DNA of 64,000 bases from Lacticaseibacillus mingshuiensis. Its GTDB lineage: Bacteria; Bacillota; Bacilli; Lactobacillales; Lactobacillaceae. The notes beneath the pieces are model-generated. The model searched no databases and had not been told where the DNA came from. It saw only the letters and a program-made list of their open reading frames with translations. The position numbers and the translations under genes were made by a program. Numbering within the stretch: position 1 is the stretch's first letter; every line of letters begins with the position of its first letter. The stretch spans positions 1 to 64,000 of the forward strand of contig NZ_BOLS01000010.1 in the NCBI RefSeq assembly GCF_016861785.1, written 5' to 3'. Of the stretch, positions 12,841 through 58,375 are shown piece after piece.

Positions 12841-13014
12841 CGCTTAGCCGAGGCGGGCGCCTCACCCTTATACGCGAGCCTCCACACCCTATAGTTGGGT
12901 TCCGGCTCGCAGGGGTGGGACATTTAGCTGACCCAGGCACTCGATGGCAAGGGGCGCCATCAAGCACCCAGGCCAGGCTAACTGCCCACCCCAATACGCG
13001 AGCCTCCACACCCT
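12841..13014 (-). repeat. Hairpin repeat, locus A (one full unit plus one partial)
   Basis: A full unit of 123 bp (12892-13014, minus orientation) begins AGGGTGTGG inside the TAG stop codon of the GH29 gene and ends ACCCAACTA. Its arms pair: GGCTCGC with GCGAGCC, GGGGTGGG with CCCACCCC, and GATGGC with GCCATC near the tip. A shortened second unit starts right after it (AGGGTGTGG at 12890 going left to about 12841). Both lie in the GH29-sulfatase intergenic region and so in the operon mRNA. Confidence 0.8.
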
Positions 13015-14476
13015 ACAATCGTGCCACCCGCGCTTCCATCAAAGTCGGCGCGGCGCGAAACGCGGTGAAGCTGATCTTCACGGCACTGGTCTCAACGTCC
13101 TCAAAGCGCAAGATTCGACAATTGCCGATCGTCGTTGCGCGCGTCAGCTCATGCCACCCATCCGCCTGCAGGGCCATCACGACAAAGGCCTCGACGCGTT
13201 GCCCCCGGCTGATGGCTTCGCGCAGGGTCAGCGTGTTGACCCGCACCGGTTGCGCCCAAGTCAGCGTCACGGCAGGATTCGCATCATCCGGCGCCGCCTC
13301 CCAGGCCTGCTGAGCGGCCGGGGCGTCACCTACATCCCCAAAAATCGCAGCCGCAGCGTCACCTGCCCCGCCCGTGATCGCAAAGGGCGCCACAGAACTG
13401 GTCGCCGCCACCACGGCCGCCCCGCTCACATCCGGGTCAGTTAGCTGGGCAATTTTTTTACCGACCGCAACCAGCGCCGCCTGATCCGCGTCGCCGAACC
13501 GGCCGTGGCGATTCAGCGGCACATTCGACAAGAGTGCCGCGTTGCCGCCGACCGCCTTGCAGTACAGGTCAAACAACTCATCGCCCGAGCGCACCTGGGC
13601 GTCTTGGGCTTCATGGAAAAACCAACCCGGCCGGATCGACGTGTCGACCTCCGCCGGATACCACACGAGCGGCCCGTCATAATCGGCCAAGGCGGTGCGA
13701 CTGCCGAGGTCATCATCGGTGGACTTGAACTGGCGCGAAAACGCGGCATCATCGCGTTGCTGCGACAGCGCGGCAACCCGCTCGGCTTCCCTGAGCGCAG
13801 CCGGCACCACGCTCCACTCGCTGGCCCGGGTGTGGCCCGCTTCGTTGCCGATCCAGCGCACATCGGGGCCGCTGACGGCGATCACCGCATTTGGCTGCAG
13901 CGTCCGCATCACCTGGTAATACCGGTCCCAGTCATAGACCTGATGCTTGCCGTTTGGACCCTCACCGTTTGCCCCATCGAGCCAGATCTCAAACAGCGAC
14001 CCGTAATTGCTGAGCAGCTCCGTCAGTTGAGCGACATACAGGTCATCATAGGCCTTGCCCTGCCCATACACCGCTGCGTGACGGTCCCATGGCGACAGAT
14101 ACACGCCGAACTGCATCTGATGTCGCGCGCAGGCATCCGCAAACAGCCGCACCACATCTCCGCGGCCGTTTTGCCAGGGACTGGCCGCCACGGAATGCGT
14201 CGTCGTTTTCGTCGGCCATAGGCAATAGCCGTCGTGGTGCTTACACGTCAGAATCAGCCCGCGCATGTGTGCCGCCTGCATCGCAGCCACAGCGCGGTCG
14301 GCGGCGGCTGCGTCGAGTCCCGTAGGATCAAACAGCGCGGGGTCTTCCGTGCCATCGCCCCATTCGCGATCGGTCATCGTGTTCATGCCAAAATGGATAA
14401 AGCCGTAAAAGCCGAGCTGCTGCCAGGCAAGCTGGCGGGGGCTGGGGGTCACGTTGATCGCTTCAGCTAATTTCAT
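13013..14476 (-). CDS. GH29 alpha-L-fucosidase (type B-like)
   Basis: Releases L-fucose from glycans. The 487-residue protein has a TIM barrel with GFYGFIHFGMNT near the start, TCKHHDGYCLWPT (about 77-89) and the nucleophile Asp167 in FEIWLDGANG. The segment WYPAEVDTSIRPGWFFH around residue 272-288, including a Glu at 276 as possible acid/base, is typical of the alpha-1,3/1,4-specific GH29 subfamily. A C-terminal beta-sandwich of about 130 residues (VTLTWAQPVRVNTLTLRE, then VKISFTAF) resembles an F5/8-type module. No signal peptide, so it acts in the cytoplasm. The ATG has AAAAAAAGGAG upstream. It lies after the GH123-like gene and before the sulfatase in one operon. A small duplicated copy of its first codons lies just upstream. 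Confidence 0.87.
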   Translation of the reverse strand: MKLAEAINVTPSPRQLAWQQLGFYGFIHFGMNTMTDREWGDGTEDPALFDPTGLDAAAADRAVAAMQAAHMRGLILTCKHHDGYCLWPTKTTTHSVAASPWQNGRGDVVRLFADACARHQMQFGVYLSPWDRHAAVYGQGKAYDDLYVAQLTELLSNYGSLFEIWLDGANGEGPNGKHQVYDWDRYYQVMRTLQPNAVIAVSGPDVRWIGNEAGHTRASEWSVVPAALREAERVAALSQQRDDAAFSRQFKSTDDDLGSRTALADYDGPLVWYPAEVDTSIRPGWFFHEAQDAQVRSGDELFDLYCKAVGGNAALLSNVPLNRHGRFGDADQAALVAVGKKIAQLTDPDVSGAAVVAATSSVAPFAITGGAGDAAAAIFGDVGDAPAAQQAWEAAPDDANPAVTLTWAQPVRVNTLTLREAISRGQRVEAFVVMALQADGWHELTRATTIGNCRILRFEDVETSAVKISFTAFRAAPTLMEARVARL

Positions 14477-19426: not shown

Positions 19427-19710
19427 ATGTCGGTCGCCCGACCATCTCGCGGGCTTCCGCACCCTGTAGTCGGGCTTCGCGGGCCAGGGGTGAGTCATCT
19501 AACTGGTCCCGTCACTCGGGGCGAAGTGCGCCCCAAGCGCCAGGCCCAAGTTAGCTGCGCACCCCTAAACGCCCCGCTGCGCACCCTGTAGTCGGGCTCC
19601 GGTGCGCATGGTCGAGACAGCTAGGTACGCCAATCACTCGGTGGCAAGAAGCGCCACCAAGCGCTTGACTAGCCTACCTGCTCGACCATAAACACGCACC
19701 TCCGCACCCT
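19427..19710 (-). repeat. Hairpin repeat, locus B (two full units plus one partial)
   Basis: Unit B1 (19589-19710) begins with A of the TAA stop codon of the upstream gene (TAAGGGTGCGG) and ends GCCCGACTA. Unit B2 (19467-19587) follows after one base. A partial third unit covers about 19427-19465. B1 has stem ATGGTCGAG/CTCGACCAT-type arms and a GGTGGC/GCCACC tip. B2 has GGGGTG/CACCCC-type arms and a GGGGCG/CGCCCC tip, and is nearly identical to unit E1 at 33395. Confidence 0.85.
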
Positions 19711-20054
19711 TAATTTCGATGCAGGTCATCGTACTTTTCATCGAAATGGGAGGCGTTTGATTCCCACTTATGGGGCTTGGGATGCTTCTTTTGATAATGT
19801 ATTTCGATCAATTCCTCAATGCTCACGATCACGATCGCAGGCGGGCCAAATAGCATGAACCACGACAAAACATTCGACGTGAAAAACATCGCAAAATACG
19901 GAATCCACAACAGGATGTAAAACACCCAGCGGATGATGAGATCCCGCTTCCGTTTGCGTAACCACTTGAGATCCGCCGCACTTGCGACGATCTCTTGTTT
20001 TGCCTTCACAAGCTCAGTGGTCTCATCCTCTGAGCGACTTCTCACCATGGCCAT
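19710..20054 (-). CDS. Small two-helix membrane protein, unknown
   Basis: A 114-residue protein. The start ATG at 20054 follows GAGGTGATC at suitable spacing; a TTG start 18 bp upstream is less likely. The N-terminal third is charged and probably coiled (EDETTELVKAKQEIVASAADLKWLRKRKRD). Then come two membrane segments, about 43-60 (IIRWVFYILLWIPYFAMFF) and 67-81 (WFMLFGPPAIVIVSIEE), and a His/Lys-rich tail. No known family is recognised. It is monocistronic; its stop codon overlaps hairpin repeat B. Confidence 0.75.
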   Translation of the reverse strand: MAMVRSRSEDETTELVKAKQEIVASAADLKWLRKRKRDLIIRWVFYILLWIPYFAMFFTSNVLSWFMLFGPPAIVIVSIEELIEIHYQKKHPKPHKWESNASHFDEKYDDLHRN

Positions 20055-20201
20055 TTCGATCACCTCAACCAAAGGCTCAACGCATCACCTAGGTGGCGCG
20101 ATTTTCTGTATGTGACCTAAGTGTACCCCCCGCCACAAATTGGCAAAGCACCAGGCACCCGTCAAATGTTTCGCGTGAAACATCACGTCACGACCCGCCT
20201 G

Positions 20202-27263: not shown

Positions 27264-27283
27264 GCAAGGTAAAGGCAAAGCGA

Positions 27284-27443
27284 CCTGCTCGACCATAAAC
27301 GCGCACCTCCGCACCCTTTTCACAGTCGGGCTCCGCGGGGCAGGGGTGAGGCATCTAACTGGGCCCGTCACTCGGGGCGAAGTTCGCCCCAAGCGCCAGG
27401 CCCAAGTTAGCTGCTCACCCCTAAGCACCCCGCTCCGCACCCT
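27284..27443 (-). repeat. Hairpin repeat, locus C (one full unit plus one partial)
   Basis: A full unit (27323-27443, minus orientation), nearly identical to units B2 and E1, and the first 34 bp of a second unit (27284-27317). It abuts the AGGAG that serves the DUF624 gene. This is the only locus where the element is antisense to the flanking genes. Confidence 0.8.
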
Positions 27444-27463: not shown

Positions 27464-28096
27464 ATGAAACAAATTCTCTCATACAACAGCTCCTTCATGC
27501 GGCTTCTGGAAAATGTCACCAATGTCTGGCTCCTGCACTTCTGCATGCTGCTCACCAGCTTGCCAGTTGTGACGATCGGGGCCTCGCTCATGGCTGGCAA
27601 TGCTGTGATGGCGCGCATTTACGATAATCAGGAGACCAAGGTCATCCATGATTACTGGCACTATTTCAAGGCCAATCTGAAGCAAGGCGTTGCCTGGAGC
27701 CTGATTGTGGCGGCGGTACTGCTCGTTTTGTTCTTTGACCTGAAATATCTGATCAAGTTGCCAGTCGTGCTGCATCTCGTGTTCGGCAATCTCTTGATCG
27801 TCCTGGCGATTTTCGCCTTGGCGATCCTGAGCATGCTGCCGCCGTATCTCAGTCGATACGCCGAAACGATCGGCCACGCGACGCACAATCTGCTGATCAT
27901 CTTGCTGCATCACGTCGGCTGGTGCGCGCTATTGGTGCTTGCGTCTATTTTTCCGCTGATCTTATTGATGGCTGGCAGCGTCGGCATATGGACGTTGATC
28001 TTTTGGTTCACGTTCCTGGGCTTCGGCGTTTGCGTCTGGCTGCAGTCCCTGATCTTCAAACAGATCGTCGCGCGCGTTGAGCCAAGCGCAGTTTAA
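27464..28096 (+). CDS. DUF624 (YesL-type) membrane protein
   Basis: A 210-residue integral membrane protein with about five hydrophobic segments. The start is LENVTNVWLLHFCMLLTS-like, followed by GASLMAGNAVMARIYDNQE, and ends in VWLQSLIFKQIVARV. This pattern is that of YesL/DUF624 proteins, which regularly accompany YesMN regulators and LplB/YtcP importers. Their function is not established; an accessory role for the importer or sensor kinase is often proposed. The ATG follows TAGGAGATC. It is flanked by hairpin repeats on both sides (C upstream, D directly after the stop). Confidence 0.82.
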   Translation: MKQILSYNSSFMRLLENVTNVWLLHFCMLLTSLPVVTIGASLMAGNAVMARIYDNQETKVIHDYWHYFKANLKQGVAWSLIVAAVLLVLFFDLKYLIKLPVVLHLVFGNLLIVLAIFALAILSMLPPYLSRYAETIGHATHNLLIILLHHVGWCALLVLASIFPLILLMAGSVGIWTLIFWFTFLGFGVCVWLQSLIFKQIVARVEPSAV

Positions 28097-28097
28097 C

Positions 28098-28218
28098 AGG
28101 GTGCGAAGCGGGGCGCTTAGGTCTGAGCAGTTAGCTTGGACTGGGTGCTTGAGGCGTTCTTCGCCTCGAGTGCACAGTCCAGCTAAGTGTCTCAGACCTG
28201 CCCCGGGAAGCCCTACTA
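28098..28218 (+). repeat. Hairpin repeat, locus D (one unit)
   Basis: One 121-bp unit starting one base after the DUF624 stop codon and ending against the AGGAGGAG of the first GH65 gene, so it fills the whole intergenic space. Arms: GCGGGGC/GCCCCGG-type base, AGGTCTGAG/CTCAGACCT, and tip GAGGCG/CGCCTC. Confidence 0.85.
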
Positions 28219-28228
28219 GGAGGAGACA

Positions 28229-30412
28229 ATGAATTCGGATTGGCTATTTACACAGACCGGTTATGACCCCGAGGATCTCAATGGCTTGGGCAACCGGTTC
28301 ATGCTCGCCAACGGTTATATGGGCTACCGCGGCGTCCTTGAAGAGTATGGCAAAAAACAATTGGTCGCCTTGAACCTCGGCGGGGTCTATGACCGCAATG
28401 GCGACAAATGGCGCGAAACTGTTAACGCGCCAGACCCAATGGCGATCACCCTGACGCGCGGCGATCAGGCCTTCAGCGTGCTCAAGCAATCCCCGCTTGC
28501 GCACACGATGACTTTGGATTGCCAGCATGCCAAGGTGAGCCGCCACACGGTTTTCCAAGCCCCAGAAGGCACCGTGACGATCACCAGCGAGCGCTTCTTG
28601 AGTGCCGCTGCCACCCATTACGGCGCACTGCAATATCACATCGAGGCGGATTTTGCCGGGGACTTCACCTTGCGCGCCGGCATCGATCACGATGTGTGGG
28701 ACATCAACGGACCGCATTTATTCAACTACGCCCAGACCGTCCAAGATGACACGTTCTGCGTCTTCGCCCGCACCGGGGAAAAATGTGTCCCGATCGCCGT
28801 TTGGCAGAAGCAATTCCTGGATGCGCCGGCTGAAGCCAGCATCGAGCGCGCCACGACCGGCTTGTTCCGCAATTATCAGCTGCACCTGACGGCAAACGTG
28901 CCGGTCACCCTGACCGTCTTTTTCGGCGTCAGCGAGACCGAGCGCGACGACAACGCGATCGCCCTGGCGATGCGCGGGGTGCAGGCCAGCGATTTCGCCA
29001 CATGGCAGGCGGCGCATGAAGCCGTTTGGGCCAAGTGGTGGGCGCAAAGCGATATTGAGATCGACGGCCCGGTCGATGATCAGCGGGCCCTGCGCTACAG
29101 TCTGTATCAGCTGCTCGCGATCGCCCCGCATGGCGTCGCCGATCAGTCGATTCCGGCGCGCGGCCTGTCCGGGCAAACCTACAAAGGCGCCATTTTCTGG
29201 GACACGGAAATGTTCATGTTGCCATTTTTCCTGGCGACGGATGCCGAAACGGCCCGCAGTTTGGTGGGCTACCGAATCCGCGGGCTGCAGGCAGCAAAGC
29301 AAAAAGCGGCCAGTTACGGCTTCCAAGGCGCGTTTTATGCCTGGGAAAGCCAGGAGAATGGCTTTGACGCCACCTCCGATTTCAACGTCACCGATGTGTT
29401 CACGAAGCGGCCGATGCGGACGTATTTTCGGGACAAGCAGGTCCATATTTCCGGGGCGATCGCCTTGTCGATCTGGCAGACTGCCCAGTGGCTGAACGAT
29501 CCGAAACTGCTGCTGTCCGGCGGCGCCGAAGTGATTCTGGAATGCGCCCGTTTTTACCTGGATTACGTCAAGCAAGGCCTGCTGGATGACACGATCGTTT
29601 GCGATGACGTCATCGGGCCGGATGAATACCACGAGCGCGTCAACAACAACGCCTACACCAACAAGATCATCGAGGAGACTTGGCGCGCGGCGCTTGCGGT
29701 GATCGATTGGCTGCAAAAACAGGCGCCGTCCGCCCTCAAGACGATGCTCGGCCAGCTCCATTACGCCGACTTGCCGCAATTGATCGCGGCCAGCCTGCCG
29801 AAACTAAAGCAGCCGCTGGTCAAAGACGGCGTGATCGCCCAGTTTGATGGCTATTTTGGCCTCGAAGACACCACGGTCGAGGCCGTGCGCAGCCGGCTGC
29901 TGGATCCGCGTGAATATTGGGGCGGCGCATATGGTGTGGCCTCGCAGACACAGGTGATCAAGCAGGCCGATGTGATGATGATGCTCGCGCTTTTCCCACA
30001 AGACTATTCCCCTGAAACGCACCAGCAAAATTATGCCTACTATGAGCCCCGCACCGAACACGGCTCCTCACTCAGCTGGAGTATGTACGCGATCGAAGCG
30101 GCGCGGCTGGGCCTGGGGGACGCCGCCCATGACTTTTTCGTCAAAACGGCAACGGTCGATCTGACCGGGCAGTCCAAACAATGGGCCGGGTCGATCTACA
30201 TCGGCGGCACCCACCCCGCCGCAAATGGGGGCGCCTGGCTGGTCGCGATGCGCGGCTTTGCCGGGATGCAGGTGCGCGATGGGCAACTTGAATTCAAGAA
30301 CCAGCTCCCGCCGCAGTGGCGCGCGATGCGTTTTCACGTCGGCTATCACGGCCGGCATTACAGCGTCACGCTCAAAGCAGGACAAGAACAACCCGAAGTG
30401 GAGGAAAACTAG
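28229..30412 (+). CDS. GH65 disaccharide phosphorylase (first copy)
   Basis: Splits an alpha-glucobiose by phosphorolysis to beta-glucose 1-phosphate and glucose in the cytoplasm. The 727-residue protein has the GH65 layout: N-terminal beta-sandwich (GNRFMLANGYMGYRGVLEEY near residue 20-40), an (alpha/alpha)6 barrel with GAIFWDTEMFMLPFF, and a C-terminal beta-sheet. The general acid is Glu466 in GPDEYHERVNNNAYTN. Specificity (maltose, kojibiose, nigerose or other) cannot be read with confidence. It is followed by a second GH65 and by beta-phosphoglucomutase, which completes a phosphorolytic pathway. The ATG follows AGGAGGAGACA. Hairpin repeat D lies immediately upstream. Confidence 0.9.
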   Translation: MNSDWLFTQTGYDPEDLNGLGNRFMLANGYMGYRGVLEEYGKKQLVALNLGGVYDRNGDKWRETVNAPDPMAITLTRGDQAFSVLKQSPLAHTMTLDCQHAKVSRHTVFQAPEGTVTITSERFLSAAATHYGALQYHIEADFAGDFTLRAGIDHDVWDINGPHLFNYAQTVQDDTFCVFARTGEKCVPIAVWQKQFLDAPAEASIERATTGLFRNYQLHLTANVPVTLTVFFGVSETERDDNAIALAMRGVQASDFATWQAAHEAVWAKWWAQSDIEIDGPVDDQRALRYSLYQLLAIAPHGVADQSIPARGLSGQTYKGAIFWDTEMFMLPFFLATDAETARSLVGYRIRGLQAAKQKAASYGFQGAFYAWESQENGFDATSDFNVTDVFTKRPMRTYFRDKQVHISGAIALSIWQTAQWLNDPKLLLSGGAEVILECARFYLDYVKQGLLDDTIVCDDVIGPDEYHERVNNNAYTNKIIEETWRAALAVIDWLQKQAPSALKTMLGQLHYADLPQLIAASLPKLKQPLVKDGVIAQFDGYFGLEDTTVEAVRSRLLDPREYWGGAYGVASQTQVIKQADVMMMLALFPQDYSPETHQQNYAYYEPRTEHGSSLSWSMYAIEAARLGLGDAAHDFFVKTATVDLTGQSKQWAGSIYIGGTHPAANGGAWLVAMRGFAGMQVRDGQLEFKNQLPPQWRAMRFHVGYHGRHYSVTLKAGQEQPEVEEN

Positions 30413-32727: not shown

Positions 32728-33396
32728 ATGCTCAAAGGTTTTGTCTTTGACCTCGACGGTGTGATCACCGACACCGCCCAATATCATTATCAGGCGTGGA
32801 AAGCTTGCGCCGCACGCATCGGTATCACGATCGATCCAACAGTCAACGAGGCACTGAAAGGCATCAGCCGCATGGAGTCCCTGGAAGTGATCTTGCGCCA
32901 TGGCCACCGCGAAAATGATTTCACCCCGGCCGAAAAAGAGGCGCTTGCCACGGAGAAAAACAACGAGTATGTCGGGCTGCTGGCGAATATGACCCCGGCC
33001 GACATTTTACCCGGCATGCAGGCCTTTCTCGAAGCGCTCAAGGCGGCGGATTACAAACTCGCCCTGGCCTCTGCCTCGAAAAACGCCCCGACGATTCTCG
33101 CCCGCCTTGGCCTGGCCGACTATTTTGACGCGATGGTCGACCCCGCCACACTGACCCACGGCAAGCCTGATCCGGAGATCTTCGTGAAGGGGGCCGAATT
33201 GGTCGGCATCAAGCCAAGCGAAGCAGTTGGCCTGGAAGACGCCGTCGCCGGCATTCAGGCGATCAACGCGGCCGGTGAATTTTCCGTCGGCATCGGCGAC
33301 CCAACGATCCTGCACGAAGCCGACCTGAACTTTGCCGCAACATCTGAAGTCTCCCTCGCCGCAATCGAAAACGCATTTGAATCAAAAAATGGCTAG
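32728..33396 (+). CDS. pgmB: Beta-phosphoglucomutase
   Basis: Converts beta-glucose 1-phosphate from the GH65 phosphorylases to glucose 6-phosphate. The 222-residue HAD-family protein has the nucleophile motif FDLDGVITDTAQYH (Asp8, Asp10), a cap domain with KGISRMESLE, ASASKNAP (motif II Ser), HGKPDPEIF (motif III Lys) and GLEDAVAGIQA (motif IV acidic pair). These match PgmB of lactic acid bacteria. Start ATG follows AAAGGAG. It is the last gene of the operon; its TAG stop codon is part of the first hairpin unit of locus E. Confidence 0.93.
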   Translation: MLKGFVFDLDGVITDTAQYHYQAWKACAARIGITIDPTVNEALKGISRMESLEVILRHGHRENDFTPAEKEALATEKNNEYVGLLANMTPADILPGMQAFLEALKAADYKLALASASKNAPTILARLGLADYFDAMVDPATLTHGKPDPEIFVKGAELVGIKPSEAVGLEDAVAGIQAINAAGEFSVGIGDPTILHEADLNFAATSEVSLAAIENAFESKNG

Positions 33397-33883
33397 GGTG
33401 CGAAGCGGGGCGTTTAGGGGTGAGCAGCTAACTTGGGCCTGGCGCTTGGGGCGCACTTCGCCCCGAGTGACGGGACCAGTTAGATGACTCACCCCTGCCC
33501 CACGAAGCCCGACTAAAGGGTGCGAAGGTGCGCGCTTATGGTCGAGCAGGTAGGCTAGCCAAGCGCTTGGTGGCGCACCTTGCCACCGAGTGCTTGGCGT
33601 ACCTAGCTGTCTCGACCATGCACGCCGGAGCCCGACTACAGGGTGCGGAAGCTCGCGGGATGGTCGGGCGGGTAGCTTGGCTCGGGTGCTTGAGGCGCAC
33701 TTCGCCTCGAGTACACGAGACAGCTAGACGTCCCGACCATGCGAGCTGGAGCCCGACTAAAGGGTGCGAAGGTGCGCGCTTATGGTCGAGCAGGTAGGCT
33801 AGCCAAGCGCTTGGTGGCACACCTTGCCACCGAGTGCTTGGCGTACCTAGCTGTCTCGACCATGCGCACCGGAGCCCATCTAA
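33395..33883 (+). repeat. Hairpin repeat array, locus E (four tandem units)
   Basis: Four head-to-tail units: E1 33395-33516, E2 33517-33639, E3 33640-33760, E4 33761-33883. E1 begins AGGGTGCG inside the pgmB TAG stop codon. Each unit ends GCCCGACTA or GCCCATCTA. E2 and E4 are almost identical; E1 and E3 differ but keep paired arms: CTCACCCC with GGGGTGAG in E1, CTCGACC with GGTCGAG in E2/E4, CCCGACC with GGTCGGG in E3; tips GGGGCG/CGCCCC, GGTGGC/GCCACC, GAGGCG/CGCCTC. A degenerate GTGCGG/CCGCAC hairpin follows at about 33885-33917. Confidence 0.9.
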
Positions 33884-33948
33884 AGCGGTGCGGCACGCCT
33901 CCCTAAGCGGCCGCACTCTCAGATGAAGGGGCCCGTTTCTCCCTAATG

Positions 33949-52882: not shown

Positions 52883-53005
52883 AGGGTGCGCAGCGGGGCG
52901 CTTAGGTCTGAGCAGATAGTTCGGCCTGGGCGGTTGATGGCGCACTTGGCCATCGAACGACTGGGACGACTATCTGTCTCAGACCTGCCCCGCGGAGCCC
53001 AACTA
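52883..53005 (+). repeat. Hairpin repeat, locus F (one unit plus a short start of another)
   Basis: One 123-bp unit beginning TAAGGGTGCGCAG and ending GCCCAACTA, followed by the first bases of a second (CGGGTGCGCAGCG). Arms: AGGTCTGAG/CTCAGACCT and tip GATGGC/GCCATC. It lies in the 361-bp gap between the SBP gene and the aldolase gene, which otherwise holds only two terminators. Confidence 0.85.
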
Positions 53006-53035
53006 TCGGGTGCGCAGCGAAGCCTCACCGAACGC

Positions 53036-58217: not shown

Positions 58218-58256
58218 AAAAGGCGCGCAACCAGATCGAACGGTTGCGCGTCTTTT
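58218..58256 (+). terminator. Intrinsic terminator of the fucI operon
   Basis: AAAAGGCGCGCAACC pairs with GGTTGCGCGTCTTTT around a 9-nt loop. The last bases touch hairpin repeat G. Confidence 0.8.
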
Positions 58257-58375
58257 AGTTGGGTTCCGGCTCGCAGGGGTGGGATATCTAGCAGTCTTGT
58301 GCACTCGAGGCGAAGTACGCCTTAAGCACCCAAGCCAAGCTAGCTACCCGGCCATCCCGCGAGCCTCCACACCCT
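58256..58375 (-). repeat. Hairpin repeat, locus G (one unit)
   Basis: One 120-bp unit in minus orientation, starting AGGGTGTGGAGGCTCGCGGG at 58375 and ending ACCCAACTA at 58256. Arms: GGCTCGCGGGAT/ATCCCACCCCTGCGAGCC-type and tip GGCG/CGCC. It lies 63 bp after the stop codon of the minus-strand GH151 gene, most similar to unit A. Confidence 0.8.

Follow-up and report, generated by a model that had tools for sequence, protein, structure and literature searches.

The window, i.e., the whole stretch of DNA analyzed here (64 kb, 55% G+C), carries eleven full units of a hairpin repeat at seven loci, and all of them were located exactly where the sequence-only reading had placed them, with lengths of 120–123 bp. 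Their alignment occupies 123 columns with a mean column identity of 80%, and they score 106.6–134.3 bits against the covariance model R1, which was built from these same eleven units. Four units lie in tandem on the forward strand (33395..33515, 33517..33638, 33640..33759 and 33761..33882). The first two bases of the first unit complete the TAG stop of ORF 32728-33396, which we take to encode a beta-phosphoglucomutase-like protein; the other three units were covariance-model matches, and a very short remnant of a further unit (33887..33893, forward strand, model positions 3–9, 11.9 bits) follows them. The final residue of this ORF matches that of the L. absianus (G008) orthologue, and by eye the L. 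jixianensis (G014) orthologue runs on for about two more residues and the L. kribbianus (G006) one stops about four residues short. Since the orthologue ends vary by a few residues, the ORF is best described as not markedly truncated, rather than as an exact match.

Three of the other loci lie on the reverse strand and end in a truncated unit. The full unit 12892..13014 completes, with its first two bases, the stop codon of ORF 13013-14476 and is followed, after a 1-nt spacer at 12891, by a 3′-truncated unit (12861..12890, model positions 1–30) that closes the array. At the next locus, the first base of the first of two full units (19589..19710) completes the stop (TA|A) of the small ORF 19710-20072; the second unit (19467..19587) and the 3′-truncated unit closing the array (19436..19465, model positions 1–31) were both found as model matches. 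The full unit 27323..27443 lies 20 nt upstream of ORF 27464-28096 and is accompanied by a 3′-truncated unit (27283..27317, model positions 1–35); the spacer between them, TGAAA (27318-27322), repeats the flank preceding the first unit. On the forward strand, the full unit 28098..28218 begins 1 nt past the TAA of ORF 27464-28096 and precedes GGAGGAG and ORF 28229-30412. The full unit 52883..53005, also on the forward strand, lies 7 nt beyond a terminator-like hairpin with TTTT and is followed by a 3′-truncated unit matched by the model (53008..53018, forward strand, model positions 2–12). For the last full unit (58256..58375, reverse strand), the nearest same-strand ORF ends 63 nt away. Several partial units had been mentioned in the sequence-only reading, and these proved to be mostly 3′-truncated further units, because most arrays end in such a unit. 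Based on our own ORF calls, genes are overlapped at three of the seven loci: by 34 nt at 12892 (2 nt at the stop codon and 32 nt at the start of the next ORF), by 1 nt at 19467 and by 2 nt at 33395.

One protein encoded in the window, of the GH65 type, shares 98% identity with a protein of Lacticaseibacillus yichunensis 33-1 (L059), which places the window in Lacticaseibacillus close to that species. G021, taken to be L. yichunensis, was compared with the window's own genome (G000). In L. yichunensis, the array at 33395-33882 has five units in another order and of other subtypes with the same left boundary, and six full units occupy the place orthologous to 52883..53005. Only an 18-nt 5′ fragment remains at the site of 27323..27443 (L059/G021). 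No unit was detected in G021 at the places orthologous to 28098..28218, where a short remnant resembling a 3′ end is visible by eye, and 58256..58375.

The conserved feature of the family is its fold, namely paired ends, a long stem, fixed bulges and loops, and a nearly constant length. Six of the eleven window units were folded singly, giving energies of −73.2 to −83.3 kcal/mol with z-scores of −6.95 to −9.00, and none of 200 dinucleotide shuffles was as stable as the folded unit. Across the eleven units, 96.1% of the paired cells are complementary, against 82.8% after shuffling and 31–41% when the partner is slid, and 25 of 47 pairs have changed on both sides. The paired arm changes between subtypes, described from the letters alone, are real; one of five measures, the number of further pair types in the same eleven units (37), did not exceed the shuffles (37.3). 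When 54 units drawn from the window genome and eleven others were aligned, double changes were found in 32 of 37 pairs.

A covariation test, proposed together with that description, was run on 176 distinct units, comparing an APC-corrected G statistic with 60 structure-free alignments simulated along the reconstructed tree. Of the 7140 column pairs, ten rose above this phylogenetic null at E = 0.05, and all ten are Watson–Crick pairs of the hairpin. Below this level, helix pairs are intermixed with off-helix pairs from rank 14 onward; the off-helix pairs are read as linkage of subtypes. The two unit ends also pair with each other (columns 1-122, 2-121, 3-118, 4-117, 6-116 and 7-115), with compensated variants at 2-121 (G-C 160, A-T 4, C-G 3), 4-117 (G-C 172, A-T 3) and 7-115 (C-G 139, T-A 26). 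Between 7-115 and 11-111 lies a conserved 3 × 3 loop (G8, A10/G112, A114), and T5 is unpaired. These bulge and loop bases are fixed, with frequencies of 0.99 for T5 and 0.98 for both G8 and A114.

In 36 orthologous unit pairs between G000 and G021, stem sites show 3.2% substitutions and unpaired sites 11.1%, and a stricter set of 21 pairs of equal length gave 66/1944 (3.4%) and 63/586 (10.8%), i.e., stems evolve about three times more slowly than loops at orthologous sites. The 60 nt upstream of orthologous units differ by 6.2% between these genomes. Among the one-sided stem changes, pairing is preserved in 36, disrupted in one of the two species in 42, and absent from both species in 6. The covariation test, the divergence of stems and loops and the pair counts together support the earlier suggestion of selection on the folded form.

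It is highly improbable that this covariation is purely mutational, with quasi-palindrome correction copying one arm from the other without selection. Templated repair would be expected to give double changes, and in the 36 unit pairs, 8 base pairs were altered in both arms with pairing retained, against an expectation of about 1.6 double changes. However, such correction should erase the bulges, yet T5, G8 and A114 are fixed; it should not push stem divergence below that of loops, while stems are the slower part; and doubly changed pairs make up only 10 of the 94 changed ones. Very unlikely, too, is a DNA-level element, a cruciform or double-stranded site bound by a protein or belonging to the nucleoid. 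Long inverted repeats and indifference to gene orientation would suit it, but the constant non-complementary bulges and loops, together with the compensating arm changes, suggest recognition of a folded single strand.

In the window's own genome, R1 gave at least 150 matches (the best 150 of 1500 candidates scored). Over the window and 80 further stretches, it gave 243 matches, of which 190 were kept at ≥44 bits after removal of reverse-strand echoes. These 190 matches fall at 108 loci of the genome; 55 loci hold one unit and 53 are multi-unit, with two (33 loci), three (12), four (7) or five units (one). Units are 117–126 nt long, gaps between them are mostly 0–5 nt, and tandem units share one direction. 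Since several contigs begin or end at these repeats, the copy number in G000 is probably underestimated: draft contigs C12, C17 and C29 (at their first bases) and C6 (near its end) begin or end inside or beside them. In contiguous contigs of G021 chosen as unit-bearing (391.6 kb), 30 arrays with 54 units make up 1.8% of the sequence, from which a total of about 360 units was extrapolated.

It should be noted that a separate, nearly uniform 118-bp hairpin subfamily, starting with AGTGGGACAA and ending with GGCCCACGACAC or similar, gives weak R1 matches and contributes a few of the 190. Seven copies were found in the G000 stretches analyzed, none of them in the window (L139, L155:4490-4607, L191:3418-3535, L196:2839-2956, L203, L206:327-444 and L216:2243-2360). 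Behind most of them comes a conserved tail that contains an inverted repeat, and the L203 copy has an extra insert. Mixed strands occur at 2 of the 108 loci, both through this subfamily. Leaving aside these two loci, four of the subfamily and one without an upstream flank, 101 loci remained; three of these had no 40 nt downstream, giving 98 arrays, and 94 arrays had a predicted gene on each side.

The arrays are mosaics with a ragged right end. Neighboring units are mostly of different subtypes, their mean identity being 72.6% against 68.9% for all pairs. In 83 of the 98 arrays, a further unit was found past the array; 4 of these were full units missed before and 79 were 3′-truncated, some very short, and 61 of the trailing fragments end at model positions 10–44. 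With the first ten nucleotides excluded, the trailing fragment has an identity of 0.76 to the first unit of its own array and 0.70 to others. Local tandem duplication as the sole origin of the arrays was therefore rejected, because neighbors differ in subtype and the trailing fragment is barely closer to its own first unit. Nevertheless, identity reaches 90% or more in 13 of 75 neighboring pairs, which shows that local duplication contributes as well. The nine bases before a unit are A/T rich and poor in C. Among spacers of 3–7 nt, 25 of 68 copy at least 3 nt of the upstream flank of their own array, against a mean of 5.5 and a maximum of 17 in 2000 shuffling trials. Separately, contig C6 carries two arrays at a distance of about 11.6 kb (L175:2380-2749 and L176:2380-2746) whose outer units are about 95% alike, which suggests that one was copied from the other.

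The left end of the arrays is placed with base precision relative to genes, which were called here with a home-made ORF caller. Among the 94 arrays, 43 have a same-strand gene upstream, and 26 of these 43 start between −2 and +5 nt from its stop codon, where 5.8 would be expected from uniform placement in the gap (P ~7e-18). In 16 of the 26, the stop codon extends into the unit, which supplies its last one or two bases. Of the remaining 17 same-strand arrays, 13 are preceded by a T-run within 15 nt; with a stricter criterion, a hairpin with a T-run stands directly before 16 of 106 arrays, four subfamily loci included. The mirror faces show nothing comparable, a start codon being abutted by 0 of 51 arrays and a convergent stop by the 3′ side in 0 of 48. 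In the relative G021, which has no unit at L199, the stop there falls by eye on the same codon.

Similar placement was seen elsewhere. Among 33 arrays from other Lacticaseibacillus genomes and a further genus, 8 begin −2 to +5 nt from the stop of an ORF of at least 60 aa and 11 are preceded by a T-run, with 0 on the mirror side in both cases. In a further set of 58 arrays (13 from the same genus and 45 from other genera), 21 lie at stops of ORFs of at least 80 aa, with one on the mirror side; T-runs were not enriched in this set (8 of 58 at the left end and 6 at the mirror end). A counter-example is found on an L. paracasei plasmid, where a unit sits between two PTS-operon genes on the other strand with its 3′ side 10 nt from a stop.

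These data bear on the suggestion, made from the sequence alone, of a structured 3′UTR RNA motif. Its link to gene ends holds for the 26 of 43 arrays at stop codons, but a purely 3′UTR motif is insufficient, because in 51 of the 94 arrays the gene upstream is encoded on the opposite strand and a T-run precedes 13. As a rival explanation, it assumes a cis-acting RNA that is not mobile, is copied by ordinary recombination, slippage and gene conversion, and is kept for mRNA stability or processing. The stems are indeed constrained in place and arrays do start at stop codons, and the loss or gain of units between repeated stretches of spacer and AGGGTG can be host slippage. Nevertheless, the orientation of arrays relative to flanking genes (29/24/22/19) is near that of element-free gaps (42/33/29/32), 22 arrays lie between divergent genes, the T-run arrays have to be accommodated, and species-specific ends and about 100 dispersed loci need a copying process. 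We consider this explanation unlikely.

Turnover was assessed at the 46 of 108 loci comparable with G021, 45 of which were analyzed unit by unit (the mixed-strand locus #20 was omitted). Full units are present in both species at 39 of the 45 sites, G021 has a fragment at three (18, 62 and 73 model positions), and no unit was detected there at the remaining three. No clean insertion at a new site was found among these 45 orthologous sites. The 39 sites hold 66 and 88 units in the two species, of which 41 and 44 are shared. Unit numbers are unequal at 24 sites: the left side has changed at 6, the right side at 6 and the interior at 4, and 8 changes are unplaced. Numbers are equal at 15 sites, and at 5 of these every unit is orthologous. 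The single sites #33 and #100 had made it look likely that arrays grow in a polar way at their left end, but this was rejected, as turnover overall has no polarity. The closeness to copies elsewhere averages 0.901 for single-species units and 0.905 for shared units; since the former are no closer, differential loss fits better than recent copying. Because most sites are common to both species and single-species units are no closer to copies elsewhere, most dispersal seems to be older than the split of G000 and G021, while the exchange of units within fixed loci seems to continue.

The search of Lactobacillaceae that had been recommended showed the family to be widespread. R1 found it in 24 of 30 genomes of the same genus, the window's own included, and in 2 of 90 others; a second model, R2, added G009 and G022. 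With R2, units were found in at least 151 of 397 Lactobacillaceae genomes, again with the own genome included, representing 18 of 40 genera. In a sample of the phylum, which doubles as a rough specificity control for R2, 2 of 398 genomes were positive: the own genome and, as the single one among 397 others, G714, which belongs to the same class. Nine candidates were scored per genome under strict filters in the R2 surveys, so that negative genomes may still carry units. In G714, a distant member of the class, the hairpins are 119–120 nt long, stand in tandem and resemble the present units in their tip and end motifs (L283-L285, L297 and L308), making them a candidate sister family; 25 matches were obtained once more candidates were scored. 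Similar units occur on plasmids of Lacticaseibacillus paracasei and rhamnosus and of Pediococcus acidilactici and inopinatus, and one with about 80% identity on a Ligilactobacillus salivarius plasmid; the window units or the G714 pair as queries gave no plasmid match, and the one query searched against phages gave none.

Comparison with Rfam, also recommended, revealed no known RNA family at the gathering score. The window had no match at that score, and the 12 matches up to E = 1 among 20 related loci were all below it; these, several of them to microRNA hairpins, are taken as chance. A REP-like element mobilized by TnpA-REP, another of the early suggestions, did not hold up, since the Y1 search showed no REP-associated Y1. 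The own genome has three Y1 matches, two cut off at contig ends and a complete one beside a TnpB-like ORF, presumably TnpB of the IS200/IS605 type. Y1 was absent from G001, G006, G011 and G014, four relatives rich in units (at least 25, 30, 30 and 29 matches, respectively, among 30 candidates scored in each). Mobilization of a REP/BIME-like repeat by a Y1 (RAYT) transposase would agree with the high copy number, folded form, extragenic position and species-specific variants, as well as with the three Y1 matches as such. Given the setting of the complete Y1 gene, the unit-rich relatives without Y1, and units of about 120 nt arranged head to tail rather than inverted pairs of 20–40 nt, it is mostly refuted and extremely improbable. 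As a separate observation, the end of an IS200/IS605-like element (TnpA with a TnpB-like ORF) abuts a truncated unit (L009:145-200, L148), which is taken as insertion of that copy next to the unit.

PF00078 reverse transcriptase gave no match in G000. A group II intron or reverse transcriptase route, hinted at by the GTGYG 5′ end and the terminator sites, was rejected on this result and because the 5′ motif is not conserved in other species; routes through Y1 and through reverse transcriptase are both unlikely, as Y1 is missing in unit-rich relatives and PF00078 in the own genome. The end sequences of the units are species-specific, and in some species the units end by eye in GACGA, which is CGTC on the other strand. 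Integron attC sites were dropped on the end sequences, by eye.

Based on the above results, we think it rather probable that the family is an old, non-coding, folded dispersed hairpin repeat of about 120 nt in Lactobacillaceae, which spread with a precise left end and then came under selection on its fold. Its dispersal would have followed the manner of a miniature non-autonomous mobile element, yielding single units or head-to-tail arrays. Weighing against this reading are the searches for a mobilizing gene (Y1 in unit-rich relatives, PF00078 in the own genome), which were negative, the 45 orthologous sites without a clean new insertion, single-species units that are no closer to other copies than shared ones, turnover without polarity, the 51 of 94 arrays lacking a same-strand gene upstream, the T-runs that are not enriched in the more distant set, and the occurrence of local duplication. 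We infer that copies spread by oriented insertion or copying, precise at the left end and leaving a short duplication, that most of this spread is old, and that arrays now mainly gain, lose or exchange units. If transcribed, the hairpin may act close to the 3′ termini of mRNAs, for instance by impeding 3′-to-5′ decay, as its position and constraint suggest; this would explain the constraint on the stems.

A more specific version, which we put forward tentatively and regard as distinctly unlikely, is a new kind of mobile repeat that is added, always in the same orientation, behind genes or transcription units at their 3′ ends by an enzyme that is neither Y1 nor a canonical reverse transcriptase. 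The left end would join base-precisely in or just after a stop codon, or a few nucleotides from a terminator T-run, and synthesis would end raggedly in the last copy, giving arrays of n plus a fraction units. Messenger 3′ ends are expected at terminators and at ribosome-dependent cuts in stop codons. The left-end positions coincide with these, so the substrate could be the transcript end or DNA opened there.

The directional placement of the arrays, with a precise left end and a ragged right end, is a new observation. If our preferred reading of an old dispersed repeat is right, lactic acid bacteria in wide use harbor a repeat family that has apparently not been described before. It takes up about 1.8% of the L. 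yichunensis contigs sampled, and its position would mark the ends of genes and transcripts at base precision. It would also offer a natural test of how structural elements spread and are retained, and of whether stop-codon hairpins control mRNA decay. As arrays vary between close relatives, they could serve as typing markers.

Among known tandem intergenic repeats, the MIRU of mycobacteria adjoin stop and start codons; they are coding-capable and are not known to form hairpins. In the literature searched, mainly freely readable papers, no description of the present family in lactobacilli was found; the part of a 2008 survey consulted lists three stem-loop clusters for Lactobacillus johnsonii (PMC2267715). 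The BOX, RUP and SPRITE repeats of pneumococcus are likewise small folded Gram-positive repeats, BOX with tandem internal modules, and spread in the past but only slowly now (PMC3049150). They differ in the modular build of BOX, in the IS-like repeats at the ends of RUP, and in their over-representation between convergent genes; the passages of that paper concerned do not mention precise abutment on stop codons (PMC3049150).

REP/BIME sequences share high copy number, folding, extragenic position and species-specific variants with the present family, but they are 20–40 bp long and mostly form inverted pairs, whereas the units here are 117–126 nt and head to tail (PMC2817692, PMC3733652). According to the sections of these papers on REP groups, the GTAG group is tied to Y1 transposases and the CGTC group has no known transposase (PMC2817692, PMC3733652). 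The CGTC at the reverse 5′ end of some units may point to a distant tie to the latter. ERIC/RU-1 (127 bp) is close in length, folded and intergenic, and can affect mRNA stability if co-transcribed; unlike our repeat, it is enterobacterial, and ERIC has a 7-bp terminal inverted repeat and TA at its ends (PMC2229807, PMC3049150, in the parts concerned).

By analogy, the nearest described element is YPAL/RU-2 of Yersinia, which in the section treating it is about 168 bp long, palindromic, not A+T rich, intergenic and with a contiguous open reading frame (PMC2229807). Both empty and filled sites are reported there, unlike for the Lactobacillaceae repeat, and that section is silent on mosaic head-to-tail arrays, a truncated last unit and abutment on stop codons (PMC2229807). 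Its target duplications measure 3–26 bp, its targets span or adjoin dyad symmetry, and an effect on upstream transcripts has been proposed (PMC2229807). As far as this section of the source goes, the two elements are alike in being palindromic, not A+T rich and intergenic and in the proposed influence on upstream transcripts, and they may also share a variable target duplication and targets with dyad symmetry (PMC2229807).
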